Source: an uncultured Bacteroidota bacterium (GTDB lineage Bacteria; Bacteroidota; Bacteroidia; Chitinophagales; LD1). Taken from it: a DNA stretch of 52,946 nt. Shown here piece by piece: positions 410 to 33,991 of the stretch (position 1 is the stretch's first letter; each line of letters begins with the position of its first letter). The position numbers and the translations under genes were made by a program. The stretch is taken from contig CAIOTH010000090.1 of assembly GCA_903861145.1 (NCBI GenBank), positions 1-52,946 on the forward strand, in the 5' to 3' direction. The notes under the pieces were generated by a model. That model was not told where the DNA came from. It saw nothing but the letters and a program-made list of their open reading frames with translations, and did no database searches.

Positions 410-1597
410 TTAAACTATTGCTTCGTTAAGTTTAATCTTTCCTTTCTCAATGGGTACACCCGGCAGTGTAAAGTAAAAAGTAGCGCCACCATTTACCTTT
501 CCTTCGGCCCATAGTCTACCACCATGTTTGGAAATAACTGCGTGAACCATTGCCAGGCCGACACCGGTGCCCTCAAACTCGGATGGCTTATGCAGGCGTT
601 GAAAGACGCCAAACAGCTTGGTGTAATATTGCATATCGAAGCCTACGCCATTATCCTTGATGTAATAAACATCTTCACCTTCCAATTTCCGGGTGCCGAT
701 TTCTATTACGGGATTTAATTCGTTTCGGGAGTATTTGATTGCGTTTGAAATGAGGTTAACCCACACCTGGTACATTAATCCTTTATCGCCAAAGCCGGGC
801 TTTAACTCCTGGAAACGGAAACGGGCTTTTAGTTGCTCGTTGGCAAGGCGCAATTGGCTTATGGCGGCTTGAACGAGTTCATTCATATCTAACTGCTTTT
901 TAACCGGCTCGGTGCGGCCCAGCCTTGAGAAATCGAGCAGGTCATCGATAAGCTGGCCCATTTGACGGGTATGTTCTTTAATGCCGTGAAGCAACTGTTT
1001 ACCATCCTCATTTAAAACCTCGCCGTATTTTCTGCTTAAGATTGAAGCATAGCCAATAATTACCTGAAGAGGTGAGCGGAGATCATGGGATACTGTTGAA
1101 GTAAAAGACTCAAGTTGCTTATTGGCAACTTCAAGTTCGGCAGTTCTTAATTGCACACGCTCCTCCAGTTCGGCATTTAGTTTTAAAATCTCTTCCTGCG
1201 CTTTAATCTTTTCGGCTTTATCCTGGGCCTCGCGGATAGCGCGAAGGATTTTGGATGGCAATGAGATTATTCTGTCCTTAACCAAATAATCGGTTACCCC
1301 GTTCTTGATTAGTTCAACGGCCCTTTCTTCGCCTATAGTACCTGAGACGATGATGAAGGGTGTGTTAGGGGATATTTTTTGCTTAAGATGAAACGCATCG
1401 ATGCCGGTGAACGAGGGCAACGAGAAGTCGGAGAGAATTACATCGGGAACGAAATTTTTAAGGGCGTTTTCATAATCTTCTTCGGTCAATACCAGCTCGA
1501 CGGTATAATTAATACCACTCTTTTTAAGATTATAAAGAACCAAATCCCTATCGTTGGGGTCGTCTTCAAGAATCAGTATTTTTAATTTTGTGTCCAT
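410..1597 (-). CDS. Receiver-histidine kinase hybrid (REC-HisKA-HATPase)
   Basis: A 395-residue soluble signalling protein with the receiver domain first. Residues about 5-125 form a REC domain with acidic pocket E11-D12-D13, phosphoacceptor D57 and conserved K107. A coiled linker (about 125-165) leads to a HisKA domain with phospho-acceptor H171 in SHDLRSPL, then a HATPase domain with the N-box NLISNAIKYS, DNGVGF and GTGVGLA boxes. No membrane segment is present. It is the third gene of a minus-strand set, 10 nt after the single-domain receiver, so it probably takes phosphate from the upstream sensor kinase and passes the signal on. Domain architecture is clear; the signal and target are unknown. 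Confidence 0.9.
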   Translation of the reverse strand: MDTKLKILILEDDPNDRDLVLYNLKKSGINYTVELVLTEEDYENALKNFVPDVILSDFSLPSFTGIDAFHLKQKISPNTPFIIVSGTIGEERAVELIKNGVTDYLVKDRIISLPSKILRAIREAQDKAEKIKAQEEILKLNAELEERVQLRTAELEVANKQLESFTSTVSHDLRSPLQVIIGYASILSRKYGEVLNEDGKQLLHGIKEHTRQMGQLIDDLLDFSRLGRTEPVKKQLDMNELVQAAISQLRLANEQLKARFRFQELKPGFGDKGLMYQVWVNLISNAIKYSRNELNPVIEIGTRKLEGEDVYYIKDNGVGFDMQYYTKLFGVFQRLHKPSEFEGTGVGLAMVHAVISKHGGRLWAEGKVNGGATFYFTLPGVPIEKGKIKLNEAIV

Positions 1598-1607
1598 AAC
1601 GCAATAT

Positions 1608-2045
1608 TTAGTAAGGGCTTTTATTTACTATTATCCAGTAGAGGCCTAAGTTTGAAATTGCTTTAAAGAATTCTTCGAATGCCACGGGCTTAACTACATA
1701 ACTGTTAACCCCCAACGAATAGCACGTTTGAATATCGGGGTCCTCGCTTGATGAGGTAAGAACCACCACGGGTATTTTGCTTGTCCGCTCATCGGCACGT
1801 ATAGTACGCAACACTTCAATACCATTTACTTTAGGCATTTTTAAATCGAGCAATATTACCTTGGGCTTAAAGCTTATTTCGCGACCCGAATAATCACCTT
1901 CGGCAAATAAAAAATCAAGGGCTTGCGCACCATCTTTAAGGTGGACCAATTTGTTAGCCAAGCCGTTTTTTTTCAATGCCCTGATGGTCATTTCAGCATC
2001 GCCATCATTATCTTCAACAAGTAGTATCTCTATGTCTTCATTCAT
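1608..2045 (-). CDS. Single-domain response regulator (Rcp1-like receiver)
   Basis: A 145-residue stand-alone receiver with no output domain. The acidic pair E11-D12, phosphoacceptor D67 in LLDLKMP, T/S in VVLTSS and K in YVVKP are all present. The long insertion before the D67 strand is typical of the Rcp1 family of phytochrome and kinase partners. The start is placed at the ATG at 2045: an open frame continues upstream, but only inside the kinase gene. The kinase stop and this start share the 8-nt ATGAATGA overlap, which implies translational coupling and fixed stoichiometry with the kinase. Confidence 0.9.
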
Positions 2046-4224
2046 GATTATTCTTTTTGGGTAATGAAAAATAAAAAGTGGCCCCTTCGTTTTTTTTTCC
2101 TTCGGCCCATACCTTTCCACCATGCCTTGTTATAATGCGATGAACGATTGCAAGACCTACACCAGTGCCCTCAAATTCCGTATCTGAATGCAACCTTTGA
2201 AAAACACCAAACAACTTACCGACATAACGCATATCGAACCCTACTCCGTTATCTTTTACATAGTATATAACTTCTCCTTCGGTGAGAGATGAACCGATTT
2301 CGACCTGTGCGGTTTGCTTTAATCCGGAATACTTTACGGCGTTAGAAATTAGGTTTATCCATACCTGCTTAATGGCAACGCTATCGGCCTCAACGGGTAC
2401 TAAATCATTTATTTTAAACTCCAGTTTATGCCCGTTCTTTTCAGTTTTTAAATCATTGCAAATGCCCGCAGCCATGTGCTGCATTGATAAGTTCATTTTC
2501 ACTAATTCTTTTCGGCTGAGGCGCGAAAAACTGAGCAGGTCATCAATTAACTGGCCCATCTTTTGGGCATTGCTCATAATGTTATTCATTAGCCTTTGGG
2601 CCTCGGCATCCAATTGGTGACCGTAGTCTTCCATTAATATTTGCGTAAAGCCATGAACGCCGCGCAGTGGCGCGCGCAAATCATGCGACACAGAGTATGA
2701 AAACGATTCCAGCTCTTTATTAGCTGCTTTTAAACGTTCCTCGGCCTTTTTGCGCTCGGTGTGATTGAAAACTGTGGAACGGCTTTTTACAAAGTTTCCG
2801 TTATCATCAAAAACTGCTATTGAATTAACCAGCGCCGGGAAAGTTGTACCATCTTTTCTTTGAAACTCATATTCAAGGTCGTTCACGTATCCGTTTTCAA
2901 GATAGCTGGCAAAAACTTCGTTAAATGTACTTAAGTGAGCCGCCCTGCTTTTAGGTGTGAGCAAATCCTCGTACTTCATTTTCCCTACAACCTCATTGCC
3001 GGAATAGCCCAGCCAGTGCAAAAGAGTTTGATTAATGTTAACGATAAAGATGTTCGAGTCTACCGAAAAGTACCCGCAAGGTGCCTGGTCATACAATTCT
3101 TTTATTTCGTCATTGGCTCTTAGTATTTCGCGCTCATTTCTAATGAGCTGCGTTACGTCAACCACGCTGTTAATGATGTATATCAATTCGCCTTTTTCAT
3201 CTATCACCGGCTTATTAAAGGGACTCCAGTATCTTTCTTCAAAAATACCATCAGGCCTGCGGATGTCGTATTTCAGAACGGCCATGGCATGGGCTGTTTT
3301 TGTCTCAATTACTGTATTAAACGAAGTACGGAGATTTGAAATTCCATCCGTCCCAGGATCGTCGGGATTTTCGGGGAAAACTTCGAACAGTGGCTTGCCC
3401 ACGATTTCATTCCTCTTTGTCATGGTAGCCTGCAAATATTCATCGCTAACGGCATCAATAATTAAATTGGGTAAAAGGATAAGATAGAGCCCGGGAGCAG
3501 ATTCGAACATGGCTTTGAAATCGGAAAGCTCCTTTATTCTTTTATCCAATTCATTGTTCCATTTGGTAACCTGCCGACTATGTTCTTGCTGCTGGCGCAG
3601 GTAACTACCAGCGATAAAAAGCAACAAGAAGGTAAGTAATATCAATAACACAAACAAAGCAACCAAAGCGCTATTAAAGGTTGCTATGTTTTGTTCATTA
3701 GTCTTTTGCCTTTGCTTAAGCAGCGCACTTTCCTCTTGTTGAAGGTTATCGGTAATTTGCCGAATATGATCAGTAATTCGCTTTCCCTGGCCAGTTGCCA
3801 CTAACGCAGACGCAGCGGCTAGTCCGTGGTTACTTCTTAATTCGACCGATTTAAATGAAAAATCGAGCCGCTGTTTCATATAAACATTGAGCGAATCGAT
3901 GCGAAGTTGCTGACGGGGATTATCGGAGGTGAGCGATTTTAATTGTGAGATGTTAGTGGAGAAGGCTTTATCTGCTGCCCATAAAGGTTGCAGAAAGGTG
4001 CTATCATTTGAAATAATGAATCCGCGTGAGGCGGTTTCAATATCCTTGGCCAGCAATAAAATATTGCCGGATTGATACAGTACCAGTTGGGTATGCTGTA
4101 CCCACCGAACCGAATTGGCCAATTTTTGATTGCTTTGATAAACTACATACCCTGTTAATCCTATGCCTGCTACAATGATGCAGGACAACGCCAGTAACTT
4201 TTGATTGAGGGGAATTTTAGTCAT
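2038..4224 (-). CDS. Membrane sensor histidine kinase, CHASE3-PAS-PAS-HisKA-HATPase
   Basis: A 728-residue sensor. Transmembrane segments near residues 8-28 and 183-206 bracket an extracytoplasmic region of CHASE3 type, recognised by the [10 protein letters not shown] signature. A coiled region and two PAS/PAC modules (about 235-365 and 370-495) follow, then HisKA with phospho-acceptor H514 in SHDLRAPL and a HATPase domain with [16 protein letters not shown] and GTGVGLA. CHASE3 domains sense unknown extracellular cues. It is the first gene of the three-gene phosphorelay set and overlaps the next gene by 8 nt. Its C-terminal kinase core closely resembles that of the downstream hybrid, suggesting duplication within the operon. 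Confidence 0.92.
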
Positions 4225-4587: not shown

Positions 4588-7500
4588 CTAGCGCGTAATC
4601 ATTATAGATTTGGTAGAACTGCTGCCCAAAGTAATTACACGGATAATATATAGGCCGGTTGCATACTCGCTCAAATTGTAACTTTTTTTCAAACTCTGCA
4701 CATTCGTAACCTCATCAACCTGCAACCTTTCCCCTAAAGTATTATACCATTCAATTGTTGCATTTGCCGGTTGAGGTATTTGCAAATCGATAAATACCTG
4801 ACCTGTACTTGGATTTGGATAAAGATTGAGGCTGATAGCCTGATCCATGATTGAGACGCCAGTTGTACCCGCAACAACTATACTGCCTGCTGATTCGCAA
4901 TTATTTCCGTCGGTAACTGTTACGTAGTAGGTTCCCGGAGCAAGATTATTAATAACAGCAGTTGAGGCACCGGTATTCCAATGATAAGAATAATTACCTA
5001 TGCCGCTTACAGTGGCAGTTGCCGTGCCATTATTGTTTGCCCCGGTAGCCGGAGTTGACGACATTGTTAGTGATGGCCCCCCTATATTGCTAATAGATGC
5101 AGAACCGGTGGCCGAACAACCTTTACTATCGGTTATGGTTAAATTGTAATTACCTGCAGCCAGGTTATTTGCAGAATCGGCAGTTTGTACGGGTGAGGTG
5201 CCCCATGCATAATTATAAGGCGGATAACCACCCAACACCCATGCTAATGCGCTACCCTGGGCCTGCCCGCAAGGCGAGGGTGTTGGAATTGCAGAAGCAA
5301 ATAACCCACCGGAACTGTTTTGAGGTAAAGTGTCAGACTCAACCACTGAACACCCAATGGCATCAATAATAGTTACCGTATAAATACCGCTTATTAGGTT
5401 GCTGATGGCAGAGGCCGTAGAGCCGTTACTCCAGCTATAGGCATAGGGCGATGTACCGTTAAATGGCAATAAATTAATTGCACCACTACTATCGCTGCAT
5501 ACAGGATACTGACGAATCCAAGAGCCGGTGCCTATTGGTTCGGGATTATTAATTACTGTAACCGTAGTTGAAGAGCTGCATCCGTTTTGGTCGCTTATTG
5601 TAAGATGGTAGTTTCCGGCATCTAAACCGGTTAAACTGCTTAAGGTGCTTGAGTTGCTCCAGGCATAAATATATGGAGTACTGCCACCGTTAGCCATAAC
5701 ATTAATAGTGCCGATATGGCTGTTGCAAATGGTTGCAGTTGCGATTGCATTTATGCTAACACTATTATTAGTAATAGTTAAAGGTAACGAAGATGATGTA
5801 GTACAACCTGCAGCATCCGTAACTGTTACAATATATAATCCGCCCTCCAAACCATTAAGTGTAGATGTGGTTGCTGTATTGCTCCAGGAATAAGAATACG
5901 GCGGACTACCAATACCGGGAAAAGCAGTAATTATACTACCGTTGTGTTGTGTACAAACCGGTGATGTGCCCGATAGCCTAATGTTCAATCCATCATTTGC
6001 AGTGTGCACATAACCGGTAGCGGAAACGATGCACCCATTAGCATCGGTAATTGTTACTTTATAAGTACCGGCAGCAAGACTATCAATAAATGCCAGGCTT
6101 CCACCGGTGCTCCACTGAAATTGTAATGGGAATTGAGCACCATGAACGGTTGCCAAAAGCACTCCATTATGAGCCGCACAAATGGCGTTGGTAGCGCTTA
6201 TTACTGTGGTTAAACTATCGGGAGAAGAAGTTACCATGATTGTATCCTTTATTTTGCAACCATTATTATCAGTTATAGTAACTGCGTAGCGCCCTGCAGC
6301 GATATTGTTTGTTGAGTCGTGGGTGCTGCCGGTACTCCAGGCATAGGTGTAAGGTGTAGCACCACCTGCTGCAAACGCCGTTGCTGAACCATTACTTGCA
6401 CCGCATGTGGGTTTATGGATAGAGACAGAATCATGCGTATTGCTGGTGCCTACCCATGCCCTTCCATCGGCAGTACAGCCATTGACATCGGTTACTACAA
6501 GATCGTAAACTCCTCCTTCAAGATTATTAATGGCTGCCGTTATATCACCGGTGCTCCAGAGAAACGAATAAGGGGGGGCGCCGCCGGCCGGGGCACTGGC
6601 GGCTGAACCGTTATACAGATTGCAGCTTGCCGAGACCGTAGTAATGTTAGTAGCGATGTTGGCAGTATTATCGAGAATGATGGCTATGCCATGACCAACA
6701 CAACCATTATTATCATAAACATTTACCGTATAAATACCGGGTGCCAAACCATGTATGGTGGCTGTGGTTGCGTCATTGCTCCAGTAGTACTTGTAAGGAG
6801 CTTCACCACCCGTGGCCGCGGCTGTTGCCCAACCTGTATCTTTATCGCAAAGGGCATTAGCACTTGTTACATTAACAGTTATTGGTATGCTAACATTAGT
6901 TACTACTACGTCAGCATTTGCAACGCATCCGTTTATATCTGTTACGGTAAGTAAATAATCACCGGCACTTAACCCATTTATCGATTCGCTGGAGAAACCG
7001 TTACCCCAGTCGTAATAGTAAGGCGATGCTCCACCGGTAGCTACAACACTTGCTGAGCCCTTAAATCCATCGCAGGTATCGGGTTTTGATGAACCATTGA
7101 CATAGATGATAGAATCGTTCCGTGCAATGTATGCGCTCGCGCTTGCACTGCACCCCCGAGAGTCGGTAGCGGTTACGTAGTACGTACCTGTGACACCTAC
7201 AAAGTTAGAGCTTGATATATTGTCTGAAATTATGTCTCCTGCCCCACTCCAAAGATAATTGTAAGGCGCTTGACCGCCATATGCTACTGCCAGAATATGT
7301 CCTTCGCTTTTGCAAATAATTGCCGAAGTTGACATTCCGATGCGAATGTTTTCAGTGCTATCGCTTATGGCACGGCTGGCCACAGCAGTGCAGCCGTTAG
7401 CATCGGTTATGGTTACAGCATAATTGCCTGCCGCAAGACCAACGTTGTAGCATAAAGCGCCGTGGCTATTTACTCCGTTGCTCCAGGTAAATAAATAAGG

Positions 7501-9078
7501 TTCTGTTCCTCCAGTGGCAATTCCTACAAGTACGCCATTGGCCCTGCCGCAAAATGGAGGTGATACTGTATTGAGATAGGGAACTATTGCATCAGTAGTA
7601 AACGGAATGATTGTGAAATAGCAATAAGCTACACAGCCACGTGAATCTGTTACGGTTACCGAATAGTTGCCGGCTGCCATATTTATGGAGGTATCTTTTG
7701 TAAAACCGTTGCTCCAATCAAAAGTATATGGAGGTACACCACCGGTGGCAGTAGCAACAGCCCAGCCGTCGGGTACACAGTGGCTGTTGTGTGTTTCTAC
7801 ACTAATCATAAGCGATGATGTGGTATCGGGTAGTGTAAAACTGGTGTCAGCGGTGCAACCCAACTGGTCAACTATGTGTAGCTTATACACTCCCCCCGCT
7901 AAAGAAAAAATTTGATTGGACGTAGAGCCGGTATTCCATGTGAATTCATAAGGGGCGATGCCACCAAACGGATTAGAAGTGGCAGAGCCTCCGCCCTGGC
8001 AAGTTGCGGGAAATACCGACACATCGGGTATTATATTACTGGTAGTTTGGGTGTTTACGGTGCCGCTGGCTGTGGCAACACAGCCTTCAACATCAGTAAC
8101 GGTAAATGAATAAACACCGGCACTTAAACCTGTTATATAACTGGCATCGCTGCCATTGCTCCACTCAAAAGATTCCACAGTATAAAAGCTGGAATAGTTA
8201 GCAGTTGCGGTGCCGATTGGGATACAACCGGTGGGCGTGGTTGTTACAAAAGCGGGTATAGTATCGGTTGATTCAACAATGGTAAAACTATCAACCCGAT
8301 GGCAGCCATTGATGTCTGTAGTAGTAACAAAATAAATTCCCGGTGTAAGGTCAGTATCTTCATAGCCCGATTGTCCGTTACTCCATTCAAAACTGTTCTC
8401 TATTCCATTCAGCACCTCACCAATGATCACATAACCATTATTTTGATGACAGAAATCAGGGCTTACTTCATTATATGCTAATTGCAAAGGGTCGGTATCA
8501 ACCCCTAATGTCCACGTGCGATAGCCGTGGCAACCGGCGCTGTCGGTAATAGTCACGCTGTAGGTTTCAGATAAAAGATGGTAATCTGTCCAACCTGTTT
8601 CTCCATTGCTCCATTCAAAAGTAAACGGCGGCAAACCGCCTGTAAATATTGTGGCAATTTGAATATAGCCATTATCATTCAGGCATATAGGATTAATAAC
8701 CCGGTCCGAGAATCCAAGGTTGGCGGTATCGGCTACCACAGTAATATTATATGATACCGTGCACGCCCGAAAATCAGTTGCTGTTACACTGTAAACACCG
8801 GGTGCCAGGTTATTGATGCCTACGCCAGCGCGGCCCACAGTTGTTGCCCCTGTGCTCCATTGATAAGTAAGGTCGTTTACAAGGGGGTTGGTGACTACAT
8901 TTACTATAATCTCACCATTGTTCAATTTACAATGAGGTGCTGTTATATCTACCTCAAAGCCCGCACTATTGCCGGGGCAGTTAGCACCGGTTTGAACGGC
9001 CTGGCCAAAAGCAATGAAACAAAAAAATGAAACGCAGCCGGTAATGACGGCCTTAGCGAATGAAGGGGAACCTATCAT
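4588..9078 (-). CDS. Giant SprB-repeat secreted protein with T9SS type A sorting domain
   Basis: A 1496-residue predicted secreted surface protein. Residues 1-26 form a signal peptide ending at about FGQA. Eighteen repeats of about 75 residues follow; each has a GGxxPYxYxWSNG core and ends LxxGxYxVTVTDxxGC, the pattern of SprB repeats (known from the Flavobacterium gliding adhesin SprB). The last about 80 residues start LYPNPS and match the type A C-terminal sorting domain used by T9SS for export and attachment. No catalytic domain is visible, so adhesion or surface-layer roles are likely (inference). The gene stands alone with its own terminator. Seventeen of the 18 repeats carry a Cys pair; the last lacks the first Cys. 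Confidence 0.92.
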   Translation of the reverse strand: MIGSPSFAKAVITGCVSFFCFIAFGQAVQTGANCPGNSAGFEVDITAPHCKLNNGEIIVNVVTNPLVNDLTYQWSTGATTVGRAGVGINNLAPGVYSVTATDFRACTVSYNITVVADTANLGFSDRVINPICLNDNGYIQIATIFTGGLPPFTFEWSNGETGWTDYHLLSETYSVTITDSAGCHGYRTWTLGVDTDPLQLAYNEVSPDFCHQNNGYVIIGEVLNGIENSFEWSNGQSGYEDTDLTPGIYFVTTTDINGCHRVDSFTIVESTDTIPAFVTTTPTGCIPIGTATANYSSFYTVESFEWSNGSDASYITGLSAGVYSFTVTDVEGCVATASGTVNTQTTSNIIPDVSVFPATCQGGGSATSNPFGGIAPYEFTWNTGSTSNQIFSLAGGVYKLHIVDQLGCTADTSFTLPDTTSSLMISVETHNSHCVPDGWAVATATGGVPPYTFDWSNGFTKDTSINMAAGNYSVTVTDSRGCVAYCYFTIIPFTTDAIVPYLNTVSPPFCGRANGVLVGIATGGTEPYLFTWSNGVNSHGALCYNVGLAAGNYAVTITDANGCTAVASRAISDSTENIRIGMSTSAIICKSEGHILAVAYGGQAPYNYLWSGAGDIISDNISSSNFVGVTGTYYVTATDSRGCSASASAYIARNDSIIYVNGSSKPDTCDGFKGSASVVATGGASPYYYDWGNGFSSESINGLSAGDYLLTVTDINGCVANADVVVTNVSIPITVNVTSANALCDKDTGWATAAATGGEAPYKYYWSNDATTATIHGLAPGIYTVNVYDNNGCVGHGIAIILDNTANIATNITTVSASCNLYNGSAASAPAGGAPPYSFLWSTGDITAAINNLEGGVYDLVVTDVNGCTADGRAWVGTSNTHDSVSIHKPTCGASNGSATAFAAGGATPYTYAWSTGSTHDSTNNIAAGRYAVTITDNNGCKIKDTIMVTSSPDSLTTVISATNAICAAHNGVLLATVHGAQFPLQFQWSTGGSLAFIDSLAAGTYKVTITDANGCIVSATGYVHTANDGLNIRLSGTSPVCTQHNGSIITAFPGIGSPPYSYSWSNTATTSTLNGLEGGLYIVTVTDAAGCTTSSSLPLTITNNSVSINAIATATICNSHIGTINVMANGGSTPYIYAWSNSSTLSSLTGLDAGNYHLTISDQNGCSSSTTVTVINNPEPIGTGSWIRQYPVCSDSSGAINLLPFNGTSPYAYSWSNGSTASAISNLISGIYTVTIIDAIGCSVVESDTLPQNSSGGLFASAIPTPSPCGQAQGSALAWVLGGYPPYNYAWGTSPVQTADSANNLAAGNYNLTITDSKGCSATGSASISNIGGPSLTMSSTPATGANNNGTATATVSGIGNYSYHWNTGASTAVINNLAPGTYYVTVTDGNNCESAGSIVVAGTTGVSIMDQAISLNLYPNPSTGQVFIDLQIPQPANATIEWYNTLGERLQVDEVTNVQSLKKSYNLSEYATGLYIIRVITLGSSSTKSIMITR
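4857..8961 (-). repeat. Eighteen tandem SprB-like coding repeats
   Basis: The coding region holds 18 diverged units of roughly 225 nt. At protein level each ends with a TD-x-x-GC-like signature (DFRAC, DSAGC, DINGC, DVEGC and so on to DGNNC). DNA copies are too diverged to be recent duplicates, but WSNG and VTITD segments are similar between units. Boundaries are approximate. Confidence 0.85.
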
Positions 9079-30324: not shown

Positions 30325-32781
30325 CTACTGGCCTTTCTTTATACCTGTAATCTGGAACTCAGTTCTACGGTTAATAGCGCGGCCTGCCGGGTCATCTTTG
30401 CCATCTTCGGTAGTATTAGGCACTTTAGGACGGGTTTTTCCGTAACCCTTAGCAACCAATCTATCTTTAGCAATGCCTTTAGTAATAAGATAGGCAACGC
30501 AACTTTCGGCACGCGCCTGAGATAGTTTCATGTTACCTTCATCCGAACCAATAGCATCGGTATGGGCGCTCAATTCGATAATGAATGAAGGGTTTTCAAC
30601 CAAAATCTGATAGAGGTTATCCAATACAGCTTTTGAGTTCTCGGTTAAAGTAGATTTACCAAATTCATACAATACGTTTTGCAGCGTATAACTTTTGTTC
30701 AACTCTAACTTGGCAATGGCAATATCCTTTCGGATGGTATCCATAGTCCCAAGGTTTGTTGTGGTTAAATCCGTGGTTTTTGCAAAATAGCCTTCTTTGC
30801 GAACAACAATTTTATAGGTTCTATCCATATCCAAATCGAATGCGTAATATGGATTACTCTTCATAAAGTTATTGGTCTTCTGCATACCGTTGGGCGATAT
30901 TTCGAGCAATTCAACACTGGCGTCGCTCACACCATCAAGTTTGCCCTCTTCCGAAACCAAACCCTTAACAGTATACATGGCTTTGTGCGCATAGATATTA
31001 TCCTTTATCGTGTCTTCTTCAGGCAATCCTCTCGTACTTACCGCTTCCATCTTAGGTTGAAAACCTTCTCTGTCAACTTCAACTATATAATCTGTTTCAG
31101 GATCCAGTTTAAAGAAGTATGCTCCGTTACTTGCTCCGTTATTGCCACCATTACCGGCATTGTTACCACCATTACCGCCAGTATTGTTAACCGCATTTGA
31201 GCCGGAATTAGATGAGGCATTGTGAGGTGCTACACCCGGCACATGTGCTGAACCTTGCGGTCCATCCTGTACGGAAACCAAAACCTTAGAGCCATCCGGC
31301 ATTTTTTTGTATAGCTTGAATGTAGCGTTGGTAATTATTCCTCCGCTCTCACCTTCTTTCATAGCAAGTCCCTCAACGGCGAGGTGGTAGTTAGCCCAGT
31401 AATAAACATCATCTGACGCCGTTTTTATTCCATTTAAAGGCACACCGCCTTCGCGATTAGAAACCATAAAACCATTGGTTTGATCTAAACCGCGCGAATA
31501 GTAAATATCGTCAGCACCGGTATTAACCTTTTTACCCAGATTTTCAGGTGTTGTCCAGCTAAGGTCAGGGTTTTCTGTACTTTTAAATATATCGTAACCA
31601 CCAAAACCCGGCAAGCCGTTCGAGCTGAAATACAAAGTTTTGGTACTGTCGTCAAAGAAAGGAGTTACTTCATCACCCGCGGTGTTTATTGACCCATTTA
31701 CATGCATTGCGGGCTTAAAGTCGCCATTTTGAAGTCTGGAGGTAAACCAAATGTCCAAACCACCGGTGCCTCCCGGACGATCGGAAACAAAGTAAATCAT
31801 TTCAGTTCCGTCATCGGCAATTCTAACTGCCGGTTGGGTAGCGGTAAATTTTTCTTTTGAATTTACCGTTTCTGGCAACCGCGTTACATTTGTAAATTGG
31901 CCGCTTTTATAATCTGCAACATATATATTGCATAATGAGCGATTATCATCTACTTCCAGACATTTGGTAAAATAAAACCTGTCCATCGCAGCATTAAAAG
32001 TTCCATTACCTATATTATAACCATCGGTATTTACGTCTTTATTAGCAATTGCCTGACCTTCACCCCAGGTATCACCGTTCTTTACGCTGTGTTTAATTTC
32101 ATACACGGCCTGGGCTTTAGGCCCGTTGACAAAAATCAAAGTGTCCTTGGCATTTCTTAAAGAAGAATAGTATAGTTCGTTTTCGTTTACTGCAAACGGG
32201 GCGCCTTGGTTATATGCTTTATTTACTCCGGGGCCTGCATTGTACAATTTAACTTTCGCCTTTGGGCCTGTTTTAGCGTACTCGCAACCAGCTACCTGAA
32301 GCATAGCGAGTTTTTTCAGCTTATCGGTAGAATCTTTGGGCGTATAACTTTGTGCGAACTTGGTTAAATGCTCAATAGCTTCATCGTATTTTCCGTTACG
32401 GTGCAATACGTCTCCAAAATAGAATTCGCCCTTGTTAAACAAAATCTTGTCTTCATCAGCCCATTTTTTGGTATTTGCTTTCTCGCCGGGCTTAATACTG
32501 TAAAATTTGCGGAAGAAAACCTCGGCATTTTCATAATCGCGTGACTGCAGAAGCGACATAGCTAAACCAAAGTTGGCAGAGCGGTTTGCTGAATCCTGGC
32601 GAACAACATCGCGATAGTGTTCGGCTGCTGTATAGAAATATGACTCGGCATAAAACTTATCAGCAATCTTCAATTCAGTTCTAGGCTGGGTATCGGGGGC
32701 AGTAAGCTTAAATTTTTTTGCAGAAACAAATGTGCAGTTCAAAATTAAAGCAGAAACTGTCAGCGCTATTATCTTCTTCAT
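30325..32781 (-). CDS. PorE-like outer-membrane-associated protein (TPR, PD40 propeller, CRD, OmpA C-domain)
   Basis: An 818-residue exported protein: signal peptide (1-21), TPR-type helical repeats (about 35-150), a WD40/PD40 propeller (about 180-450) with blades such as IYFVSDRPGGTGGLDIW and LYFSSNGLPGFGGYDIF, a carboxypeptidase-regulatory-like domain (about 590-680) and an OmpA C-terminal peptidoglycan-binding domain (about 700-818) with SAHTDAIGS and LSQARAESCVAYL. This order matches PorE, which links the type IX secretion machine to peptidoglycan. An Asn/Gly-rich linker sits at about 522-555. It follows the PorP/SprF gene on the same strand; several paralogues per genome are normal, so it need not be the core PorE. 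Confidence 0.85.
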   Translation of the reverse strand: MKKIIALTVSALILNCTFVSAKKFKLTAPDTQPRTELKIADKFYAESYFYTAAEHYRDVVRQDSANRSANFGLAMSLLQSRDYENAEVFFRKFYSIKPGEKANTKKWADEDKILFNKGEFYFGDVLHRNGKYDEAIEHLTKFAQSYTPKDSTDKLKKLAMLQVAGCEYAKTGPKAKVKLYNAGPGVNKAYNQGAPFAVNENELYYSSLRNAKDTLIFVNGPKAQAVYEIKHSVKNGDTWGEGQAIANKDVNTDGYNIGNGTFNAAMDRFYFTKCLEVDDNRSLCNIYVADYKSGQFTNVTRLPETVNSKEKFTATQPAVRIADDGTEMIYFVSDRPGGTGGLDIWFTSRLQNGDFKPAMHVNGSINTAGDEVTPFFDDSTKTLYFSSNGLPGFGGYDIFKSTENPDLSWTTPENLGKKVNTGADDIYYSRGLDQTNGFMVSNREGGVPLNGIKTASDDVYYWANYHLAVEGLAMKEGESGGIITNATFKLYKKMPDGSKVLVSVQDGPQGSAHVPGVAPHNASSNSGSNAVNNTGGNGGNNAGNGGNNGASNGAYFFKLDPETDYIVEVDREGFQPKMEAVSTRGLPEEDTIKDNIYAHKAMYTVKGLVSEEGKLDGVSDASVELLEISPNGMQKTNNFMKSNPYYAFDLDMDRTYKIVVRKEGYFAKTTDLTTTNLGTMDTIRKDIAIAKLELNKSYTLQNVLYEFGKSTLTENSKAVLDNLYQILVENPSFIIELSAHTDAIGSDEGNMKLSQARAESCVAYLITKGIAKDRLVAKGYGKTRPKVPNTTEDGKDDPAGRAINRRTEFQITGIKKGQ

Positions 32782-32865: not shown

Positions 32866-33930
32866 TTAAAATCTGCTGCTAGGTAAAGACTTGTTAGCCT
32901 TGTAAGACTTGATGCTTTCACCGATGTATGACAGAGAAAGTTCAAATGCGCCCCTGTTGGTTGTTGAGGTGCTTAAACCTGATATGTTAGCATCGTATGA
33001 AAATCCAAGATTTACATTACGGAACTGCAATTTAACCATTGGAATAACTGCATCAGGAGTGCTACCACCTGAACGGTAACGGAGGCCTACGCTAATACTG
33101 TTGTTATTTCTAAAGCCAGTATTGAAATAATAAGTTGCAGCTAAACCAGGCAAGTATTCAGCAAAAGGCTGTTGGTTCATGTAAAGAATGTCGGGAGTTA
33201 TTGACCATTTCTTTTCTTTTCCCAATGCAATTTCCAAATTCAAGTCGGCATCGAACCTGCGAGGCAGAATGGCGCTACCGGTACCTGTAAGTTGAGAAAC
33301 CACTAATGATTGATCGGGAGTTATAAGGTGGTAAGCACCGAAACCAACGCCCAATTTCACCTTGTCTTTAAAGTTTGATTTCCAGTATAAACCGGCGTTA
33401 AAATCGAATTTGTATACACCGTGAGTAAAATTCTCTCTTGAAGCTAATGAGTTGGTTTCGTTATAGCCATTGAACTGATCGGCAAACAAAGGATTTGTAA
33501 TCGTAGTTTGAAGAAAAGCGGCCTGTAAGCCTAAAGATAACCTGTGTTGTCCTTCAGCACCAAAACCCTTGTGATAAGCTACCGTAAGGTCAGCACTGGT
33601 ATTAGTTAATTGCGCCGAACCTGAACGATCGTTGAAAAAGCCTACACCAATTGCCAACTTATCGTTTTTTAAATACCCCTCTAAAAGGCAAAAATCGATA
33701 TCAGCCCCTACCGTTTGGTACCCGGCGCTTCCTAACGCGCTGTTCCATTGACTTCTGTAGATGGCCGATAGTCTATAACTGCCCTCGTAATTACCCACTA
33801 ATCCGGGGTTTACAAGCGAAGCCTGAGAGTTGTATTGCGAAAAGTGTAAGTCTTGCCCATTTGCCTGAAATGTTGCAACCACGATGGCTACCAATAAAGC
33901 ATTTTTGGCTAAAAAAGTAAAAAGACGCAT
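32866..33930 (-). CDS. T9SS-associated PorP/SprF family outer membrane protein
   Basis: A 354-residue beta-barrel protein. The start is the ATG at 33930: it opens a signal peptide (MRLFTFLAKNALL to about FQANGQ), and the promoter's -7 box at 33960-33967 lies downstream of the alternative ATG at 33981. The mature protein begins DLHFSQYNSQASLVNPGLVG, the family's signature, followed by alternating amphipathic strands and FFNDRSGSAQL. PorP/SprF proteins help deliver or anchor specific T9SS cargo; F. johnsoniae SprF serves SprB. Its partner here is the adjacent PorE-like gene; a SprB-repeat protein is encoded 24 kb away. Confidence 0.92.
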   Translation of the reverse strand: MRLFTFLAKNALLVAIVVATFQANGQDLHFSQYNSQASLVNPGLVGNYEGSYRLSAIYRSQWNSALGSAGYQTVGADIDFCLLEGYLKNDKLAIGVGFFNDRSGSAQLTNTSADLTVAYHKGFGAEGQHRLSLGLQAAFLQTTITNPLFADQFNGYNETNSLASRENFTHGVYKFDFNAGLYWKSNFKDKVKLGVGFGAYHLITPDQSLVVSQLTGTGSAILPRRFDADLNLEIALGKEKKWSITPDILYMNQQPFAEYLPGLAATYYFNTGFRNNNSISVGLRYRSGGSTPDAVIPMVKLQFRNVNLGFSYDANISGLSTSTTNRGAFELSLSYIGESIKSYKANKSLPSSRF

Positions 33931-33959
33931 AGAGTCAGGATTTGTTAATGAATGTAAGT

Positions 33960-33991
33960 CAAATTTATGAAAGGTTTTCAATTCAGCAAGA
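33960..33991 (-). promoter_or_regulatory. Promoter of the PorP/PorE-like operon
   Basis: On the minus strand CTTG (33987-33990), a 19-nt spacer and TAAATTTG (33960-33967, full TAnnTTTG match). The 12-nt palindrome AAGAAATTTCTT (33988-33999) overlaps the -33 element and could be an operator. Confidence 0.68.

Follow-up and report, generated by a model that had tools for sequence, protein, structure and literature searches.

A predicted staggered chain of inter-domain disulfides in SprB-type repeat proteins of Bacteroidota

How are the cysteines of a long SprB-type repeat protein paired? The question is raised by a gene in a 52,946-nucleotide stretch of DNA from an uncultured Bacteroidota bacterium of the Chitinophagales (contig CAIOTH010000090.1, assembly GCA_903861145.1; the whole stretch is hereafter called the window). 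The encoded protein consists mainly of 18 SprB-type immunoglobulin (Ig)-like repeats, and 17 of them carry two cysteines, a first (C1) and a second (C2), separated by 48-56 residues. A preliminary description, made from the sequence alone, had correctly recorded this arrangement (two cysteines about 50 residues apart) and proposed a disulfide-like staple within each repeat, that is C1(i)-C2(i), where i is the repeat number. Cysteine losses and covariation in relatives give different partners: C1 of one repeat and C2 of the following one, C1(i)-C2(i+1). Along the fibre, predicted to be secreted by the type 9 secretion system (T9SS), these partners would link successive domains by disulfides in a staggered chain, a reading to which we assign a probability of roughly 0.86.

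The window protein has 40 cysteines, two in the signal peptide (Cys15 and Cys20) and 38, an even number, outside it. The C1/C2 residues are 50/106, 132/183, 210/259, 285/333, 360/408 and 434/482 in repeats 1-6, 510/563, 589/643, 669/718, 744/793, 819/868 and 892/941 in repeats 7-12, and 967/1016, 1042/1092, 1118/1167, 1194/1243 and 1270/1321 in repeats 13-17. Repeat 18 keeps its C2 (Cys1394) and carries a Gly aligned at the C1 position, in agreement with the loss of the first cysteine already noticed there. Three cysteines lie beyond this pattern. Cys486 and Cys543, one each in repeats 6 and 7, had been seen before; Cys34, located after the signal peptide and ahead of repeat 1, had been overlooked.

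To place these residues in a wider context, 137 loci with 2,262 repeats were surveyed. Set A comprised the window, 29 other stretches of the same genome and 40 from relatives, of which 39 were searched and 32 contributed. Set B, the test set, comprised seven named loci and 60 stretches from 36 genomes, drawn from the 53 other genomes with a match among 296 genomes of the phylum searched. Because stretches were picked from match lists, the survey is biased towards strong matches. Only set A was used to train the repeat model. The first version of this model masked C2 but largely missed C1, which stands in its column 13 and not 14, and the analysis was therefore rerun with every cysteine hidden, in the model as well as in the proteins searched (Cys-blind rerun). 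In addition, the zone in which C2 was accepted was widened by five residues after some of the odd cases had been read and displaced C2 residues found, a post hoc choice. Of the 2,062 complete repeats, drawn from the genome of the window and from others, 1,888 carry both cysteines, whereas C1 alone is missing in 113, C2 alone in 55 and both in six; the two-cysteine pattern is not due to chance.

Three simple pairings were compared, C1(i)-C2(i), C2(i)-C1(i+1) and C1(i)-C2(i+1), each of which predicts that different cysteines disappear together. Set B was counted over 93 arrays of at least three repeats, at internal positions without a linker cysteine. C1(i) and C2(i+1) are lost jointly 22 times, in nine arrays, versus three single losses, while C1 and C2 of the same repeat show no joint loss versus 48 single ones. 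The Cys-blind rerun gave 25 joint (10 arrays) versus five single losses for the former pair, and none versus 50 for the latter. When C2 was shuffled within arrays (2,000 shuffles), the mean number of joint losses at lag +1 was 6.5, and 22 was never reached; at lag 0, 6.9 joint losses were expected against none observed. Both cysteines are missing in none of the 1,703 complete internal repeats of the two sets. In one locus (L103), ten repeats alternate, C1 being absent and then C2 absent from the following repeat, five times over. Joint losses at other lags in set B (five in two arrays for C1(i)/C2(i-1), ten in three arrays at lag -2, three at lag -3 and four at lag +3) were taken as the period of such alternating arrays. 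Plain losses are scarce in set A, where one joint loss (L076) is seen at lag +1 along with two single ones. Homologues thus lose single cysteines of a repeat, the outcome that the preliminary description had named as refuting its within-repeat staple. What is well supported of that proposal is the inferred number, about one covalent staple per repeat; the matched losses place the partner in the neighbouring repeat.

Many C1 losses of set A are accompanied by a cysteine gained in the linker. A linker cysteine after repeat i, together with a retained C2(i+1), is found in 38 of the 41 internal C1 losses, versus one of the 1,051 junctions where C1 is kept (38/41 versus 1/1,033 in the Cys-blind rerun). 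Because the linker sits at the same junction, C2(i+1) seems not to have lost its partner but to have it at a new site. These 38 cases stem from six arrays, three of which belong to one genome, and the effect is small in set B (4/28 with C1 lost, 6/644 with C1 kept). Two further junctions of the 1,051 (in L096 and L019) keep C1, have a linker cysteine and lack C2(i+1), as if C1 and the linker cysteine were paired with each other. Separately, most repeats of two loci of genome G025 (L072 and L095) lack C1 and have gained a linker cysteine, which would amount to a wholesale shift of the putative cross-link site.

The three pairings also differ in how many junctions or repeats they leave with an odd number of cysteines. 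This accounting covered complete internal units of arrays of at least four repeats, with losses in 10 arrays of set A and 12 of set B. With the staggered grouping and linker cysteines included, a single odd junction remained in each set (1/109 in A, 1/105 in B). The C2(i)-C1(i+1) grouping left 23/109 and 37/105 odd junctions, and the within-repeat grouping 8 and 47 odd repeats, respectively. Fully balanced arrays numbered 9/10 (set A) and 11/12 (set B) for the staggered grouping, versus 5/10 and 3/12 for the within-repeat one. When linker cysteines were ignored, the odd counts were 38 staggered versus 43 within-repeat in set A, and 3 versus 51 in set B. Hence, it is set B that decides between the pairings, set A chiefly showing linker replacement. 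A first junction count, made with the narrow C2 zone, had given 50 odd staggered cases in 1,180 versus 58 within-repeat in set A, and 67 in 822 versus 103 in set B.

Covariation identifies the same partners. In a mean-field analysis of 1,782 pairs of neighbouring repeats (1,483 effective pairs), C1(i)-C2(i+1) ranks first among 4,890 inter-repeat column pairs, with a score of 2.44 (z 12.5), and is again first, among 4,755, in set B alone. The same-repeat C1-C2 pair scores 0.07 (rank 691/2,145) and 0.45 in the two copies. Within the domain, couplings 52-70, 54-68, 32-57, 34-55, 8-69 and 11-71 fit an Ig-like sandwich, the strongest ones corresponding to strand contacts C-F, F-G and B-E and to strand A running parallel with G. 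Columns adjoining C1 (14, 15 and 17) couple with columns 73 and 49, at the end of strand G and in the E-F turn, and column 59, near C2, couples with column 28 in the B-C turn; from these couplings we read that the two cysteines lie at opposite ends of the domain. AlphaFold2 models (mean predicted local distance difference test values of 85.6 and 85.3; predicted template modelling scores low, 0.43 and 0.39) agree as to the strands (A, B, C, E, F and G), with C1 falling in the A-B turn while C2 sits at the F-G turn.

Extra cysteines served as a control of the couplings. Nine combinations are seen at least three times, and five of them belong to the top 50 in-domain couplings, namely 17-49 (44 repeats), 54-68 (15), 36-45 (four), and 37-53 and 22-44 (three each). 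The first two, both matching strong couplings, suggest a second in-domain cysteine pair in the repeats that carry them. As for the window protein, the suggestion that the extra cysteines of repeats 6 and 7 bridge the two repeats finds no support: their combination (column 67 with column 45 of the next repeat) occurs once in the 2,262 repeats, a count that fits this protein itself. For Cys486 and Cys543, a mutual pair, free thiols or a link to another molecule are all conceivable.

Bonding of C1(i) to the following repeat would leave two residues without a partner inside the array, the last C1 and the first C2, and these are the residues that tend to be missing. The last C1 is absent from 27 of the 34 closed open reading frames (ORFs) with at most 140 residues after the last repeat, the window protein included; the terminal loss noted at the outset is thus common among relatives. 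When the last repeat lacks C1, the number of cysteines in the tail is even in 23 of 27 cases and zero in 19; when it has C1, the number is odd in five of seven cases, the other two containing masked sequence. In arrays of at least three repeats, C1 is missing from 23/70 last repeats versus 39/1,047 internal ones in set A, and from 9/72 versus 27/656 in set B. Likewise, C2 is missing with C1 kept in 9/69 first repeats versus 4/1,047 internal ones in set A, and in 8/74 versus 25/656 in set B. The last repeat is also without C1 in 13/13 relatives of alignment A2, which were selected for a sorting-domain tail (13 of 14 rows were used; L069 was excluded, its last detected unit being followed by another domain). 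At the other end, the first C2 is missing in seven of the 10 arrays examined near a protein start, and these seven have no cysteine between the signal peptide (24 residues assumed) and the first repeat. The window protein retains its first C2 and has exactly one mature upstream cysteine, Cys34; L156, which also keeps its first C2, has five.

Several observations weigh against the staggered pairing. Since L117 and L155 are homologous (58% identity), the arrays are not all independent, and L117 begins with a C2 yet has no upstream mature cysteine. At some internal junctions, C2 appears unpaired after loss of C1 (2/41 cases in set A, 2/28 in set B, and 4/33 in set B in the Cys-blind run). Set A barely separates the groupings unless linker cysteines are counted, half of its loss-bearing arrays are balanced within repeats too, and set A alone ranks C1(i)-C2(i+1) only 16/4,890. 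In the first array-level accounting, all counts were even in fewer arrays for the staggered than for the within-repeat grouping (7/17 versus 13/17 in set A, 8/19 versus 9/19 in set B); array ends, truncated ones included, were scored there for the staggered grouping only. In the extra-cysteine control, four of the nine frequent combinations are missing from the coupling list: three fall within columns 39-42, too close for listing, and the fourth is column 55 in neighbouring repeats, seen six times. Finally, DSBA, DsbB, VKOR and Thioredoxin_4 were not matched in the genome of the window, which is 98.65% complete.

This last observation would suit the alternative that survives best, in which C1(i) and C2(i+1) touch across the junction without being oxidised, as a buried thiol pair or a metal site; moreover, covariation demonstrates interdependence and not chemistry. 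We nevertheless consider it improbable. The predicted extracellular location, the presence of exactly two cysteines at most junctions and the replacement of C1 by a linker cysteine at a different backbone site would fit a covalent partner better than a metal site. In addition, PMC12635249 documents disulfides in the cell envelope of Flavobacterium johnsoniae. A disulfide inside each repeat could account for the single occurrence of each cysteine in most repeats, of the window protein as of the whole survey, and for the balance of arrays in which a linker cysteine replaces C1. It is, however, very unlikely given the 48-50 single losses of set B without one joint loss, the poor rank of the coupling and the position of the two turns at what we read as opposite ends of the sandwich, and it leaves the losses at both array ends unexplained. 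A disulfide between the sequence-nearest cysteines, C2(i)-C1(i+1), would span the shortest stretch of sequence and the one that varies least in length (25-28 residues, 5-95% range) but is hardly credible: its five joint losses in set B do not exceed the 5.8 expected from shuffling, many junctions are odd and the coupling ranks 1,258/4,890.

From the C1(i)-C2(i+1) partners we infer that bonds form, which residues they join in the window protein itself and what they do mechanically. C1, in the A-B turn at the C-terminal end of domain i, would reach C2, in the F-G turn at the N-terminal end of domain i+1. The pairs predicted for the window protein are 34-106, 50-183, 132-259 and so on to 1270-1394. 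Cys34 would substitute for the absent repeat 0 in serving C2 of repeat 1, and C1 of the last repeat, having no successor, would be useless and hence lost. The distance from C2(i) to C1(i+1) has a median of 25 residues. Successive bonds of one path would therefore be separated by about 25 residues, running through strand G and then strand A of the next domain, and two interleaved covalent paths, offset by one domain, would lie side by side along the fibre. Because a stretched segment of about 25 residues is, by our estimate, about as long as two Ig domains, the fibre would have hardly any slack. It would resist stretching and domain-by-domain unfolding under tension, and the mutual orientation of the domains would be fixed.

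The features of the window protein are collected in Table 1. The Pfam SprB family (PF13573) matches with 190.3 bits (cut-off 28), and Por_Secre_tail matches the C-terminus with 57.3 bits (cut-off 27). The protein has the tandem array of SprB proteins, with 18 Ig-like units of about 75 residues each. It is thus predicted to be exported as a T9SS type A substrate and to form a surface fibre. A weak match to PF08940 (DUF1918) within the array was disregarded, as no single stretch passes on its own.

Table 1. Features of the SprB-repeat gene and of its product, in window coordinates
Feature	Position	Strand	Remarks
ORF, 1,496 aa, predicted T9SS type A substrate with 18 SprB-type Ig-like repeats	4588..9078	-	stop codon 4588-4590
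Signal peptide region, aa 1-25, with Cys15 and Cys20	9004..9078	-	boundary set by eye; putative cleavage site
Cys34, single Cys ahead of repeat 1	8977..8979	-	predicted partner Cys106 (C2 of repeat 1)
18-repeat array, aa 37-1407; C1 in A-B turn, C2 at F-G turn; repeat 18 without C1	4858..8970	-	
Cys50, C1 of repeat 1	8929..8931	-	partner Cys183 (C2 of repeat 2) predicted from other arrays
Cys106, C2 of repeat 1	8761..8763	-	predicted partner Cys34
Extra Cys486, strand G of repeat 6	7621..7623	-	
Extra Cys543, strand E of repeat 7	7450..7452	-	
Cys1270, C1 of repeat 17	5269..5271	-	partner Cys1394 of repeat 18 predicted from other arrays
Gly1346 at the C1 position of repeat 18 (no following repeat to bond)	5041..5043	-	
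Cys1394, C2 of repeat 18	4897..4899	-	
Por_Secre_tail, T9SS type A sorting domain, aa 1419-1494, Cys-free	4597..4824	-	

The genome of the window encodes many SprB-repeat proteins with numerous cysteines, together with SprA and 17 PorP/SprF matches. The sole PorP/SprF match on the contig of the window (32926-33861) is about 24 kb from the SprB-repeat gene. It belongs to a PorP/SprF-family gene (32866-33981, minus strand) followed by a gene with TPR, PD40 and OmpA domains (30325-32781, minus strand), which we take to be a T9SS-associated pair. Downstream of the SprB-repeat gene, at 410-4224 on the minus strand, the translations read by eye show two sensor histidine kinases flanking a response regulator; the frames of the response regulator and of the larger kinase overlap at 2038-2123.

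By fold and profile search, the closest solved protein is the grappling hook protein GhpA from Aureispira sp. CCB-QB1, part of a heptameric appendage. GhpA is the best match of alignment A1 in the PDB (6e-53; one of the 129 stretches was left out of this alignment). VIA-align fold matches to it reach Z 11.8 (12.8 Å root-mean-square deviation over 359 residues) and Z 11.5 (13.7 Å, 288 residues), with 14-23% identity in the VIA alignments. A whole-protein single-sequence search at E values up to 1 did not have GhpA among its matches. In the portion of the alignment seen, GhpA has seven C1-like and seven C2-like cysteines in alternation, and its deposited structures (9FLP, 9FLS, 9FLU-9FLY, 9G8B) may already show C1/C2 bonds. 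The VIA-align matches to unrelated Ig and fibronectin proteins, most at Z 8-10, were taken as a common fold only.

A further comparison is offered by the pilus and adhesin domains of Gram-positive bacteria, which contain intradomain isopeptide or ester bonds. As proposed for the window protein, each Ig-like domain of these load-bearing surface fibres has one covalent cross-link. However, their bonds are intradomain, whereas those of the window protein would be interdomain and cysteine-based. The loss pattern and the covariation, by putting the partner in the next domain, set the window protein apart from adhesins stabilised within each domain.

The repeat family is shared with SprB (PF13573), the gliding adhesin of F. 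johnsoniae. SprB has an adjacent sprF and a type B C-terminus (PMC12635249). The window protein differs from a SprB orthologue by its type A tail and by its flanking ORFs, which by eye are other genes, with no adjacent SprF. PMC12635249 also reports disulfides that link SprF to GldK and PorG to GldK. These functional disulfides belong to the same machinery for secretion and gliding; they connect proteins of the outer membrane with the periplasmic track, and not adhesin repeats to each other. Among the matches listed in the literature search, no paper treats cysteine pairing in SprB repeats by its title or the start of its abstract, and the accessible portions of PMC12618676, PMC7073777 and PMC10994853 contain nothing on cysteines in these repeats.

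Overall, the staggered chain looks like a general property of SprB-type repeats, with the lost last cysteine as its consequence. Two very long partial ORFs from one genus of the test set (6,138 and 6,205 residues within their stretches) carry both cysteines in 59/60 and 60/61 repeats. We lean towards the view that SprB-type fibres of Bacteroidota, including very long ones of gliding-adhesin size, are two-path covalent cables built through C1(i)-C2(i+1) bonds. SprB-type repeats form very long surface proteins in this phylum, among them the adhesin that pulls gliding cells, and the accessible parts of PMC12618676, PMC7073777, PMC10994853 and PMC12635249 give no explanation of how such fibres bear load. 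A head-to-tail disulfide chain would be a simple answer, and it predicts which cysteines matter and which end cysteines are spare. If this is true, the fibres would be nearly inextensible and their domains would not unfold one by one, while the arrays would need only to balance their cysteines at junctions and ends. The disulfide chain would also provide a sequence rule for locating the ends of arrays.

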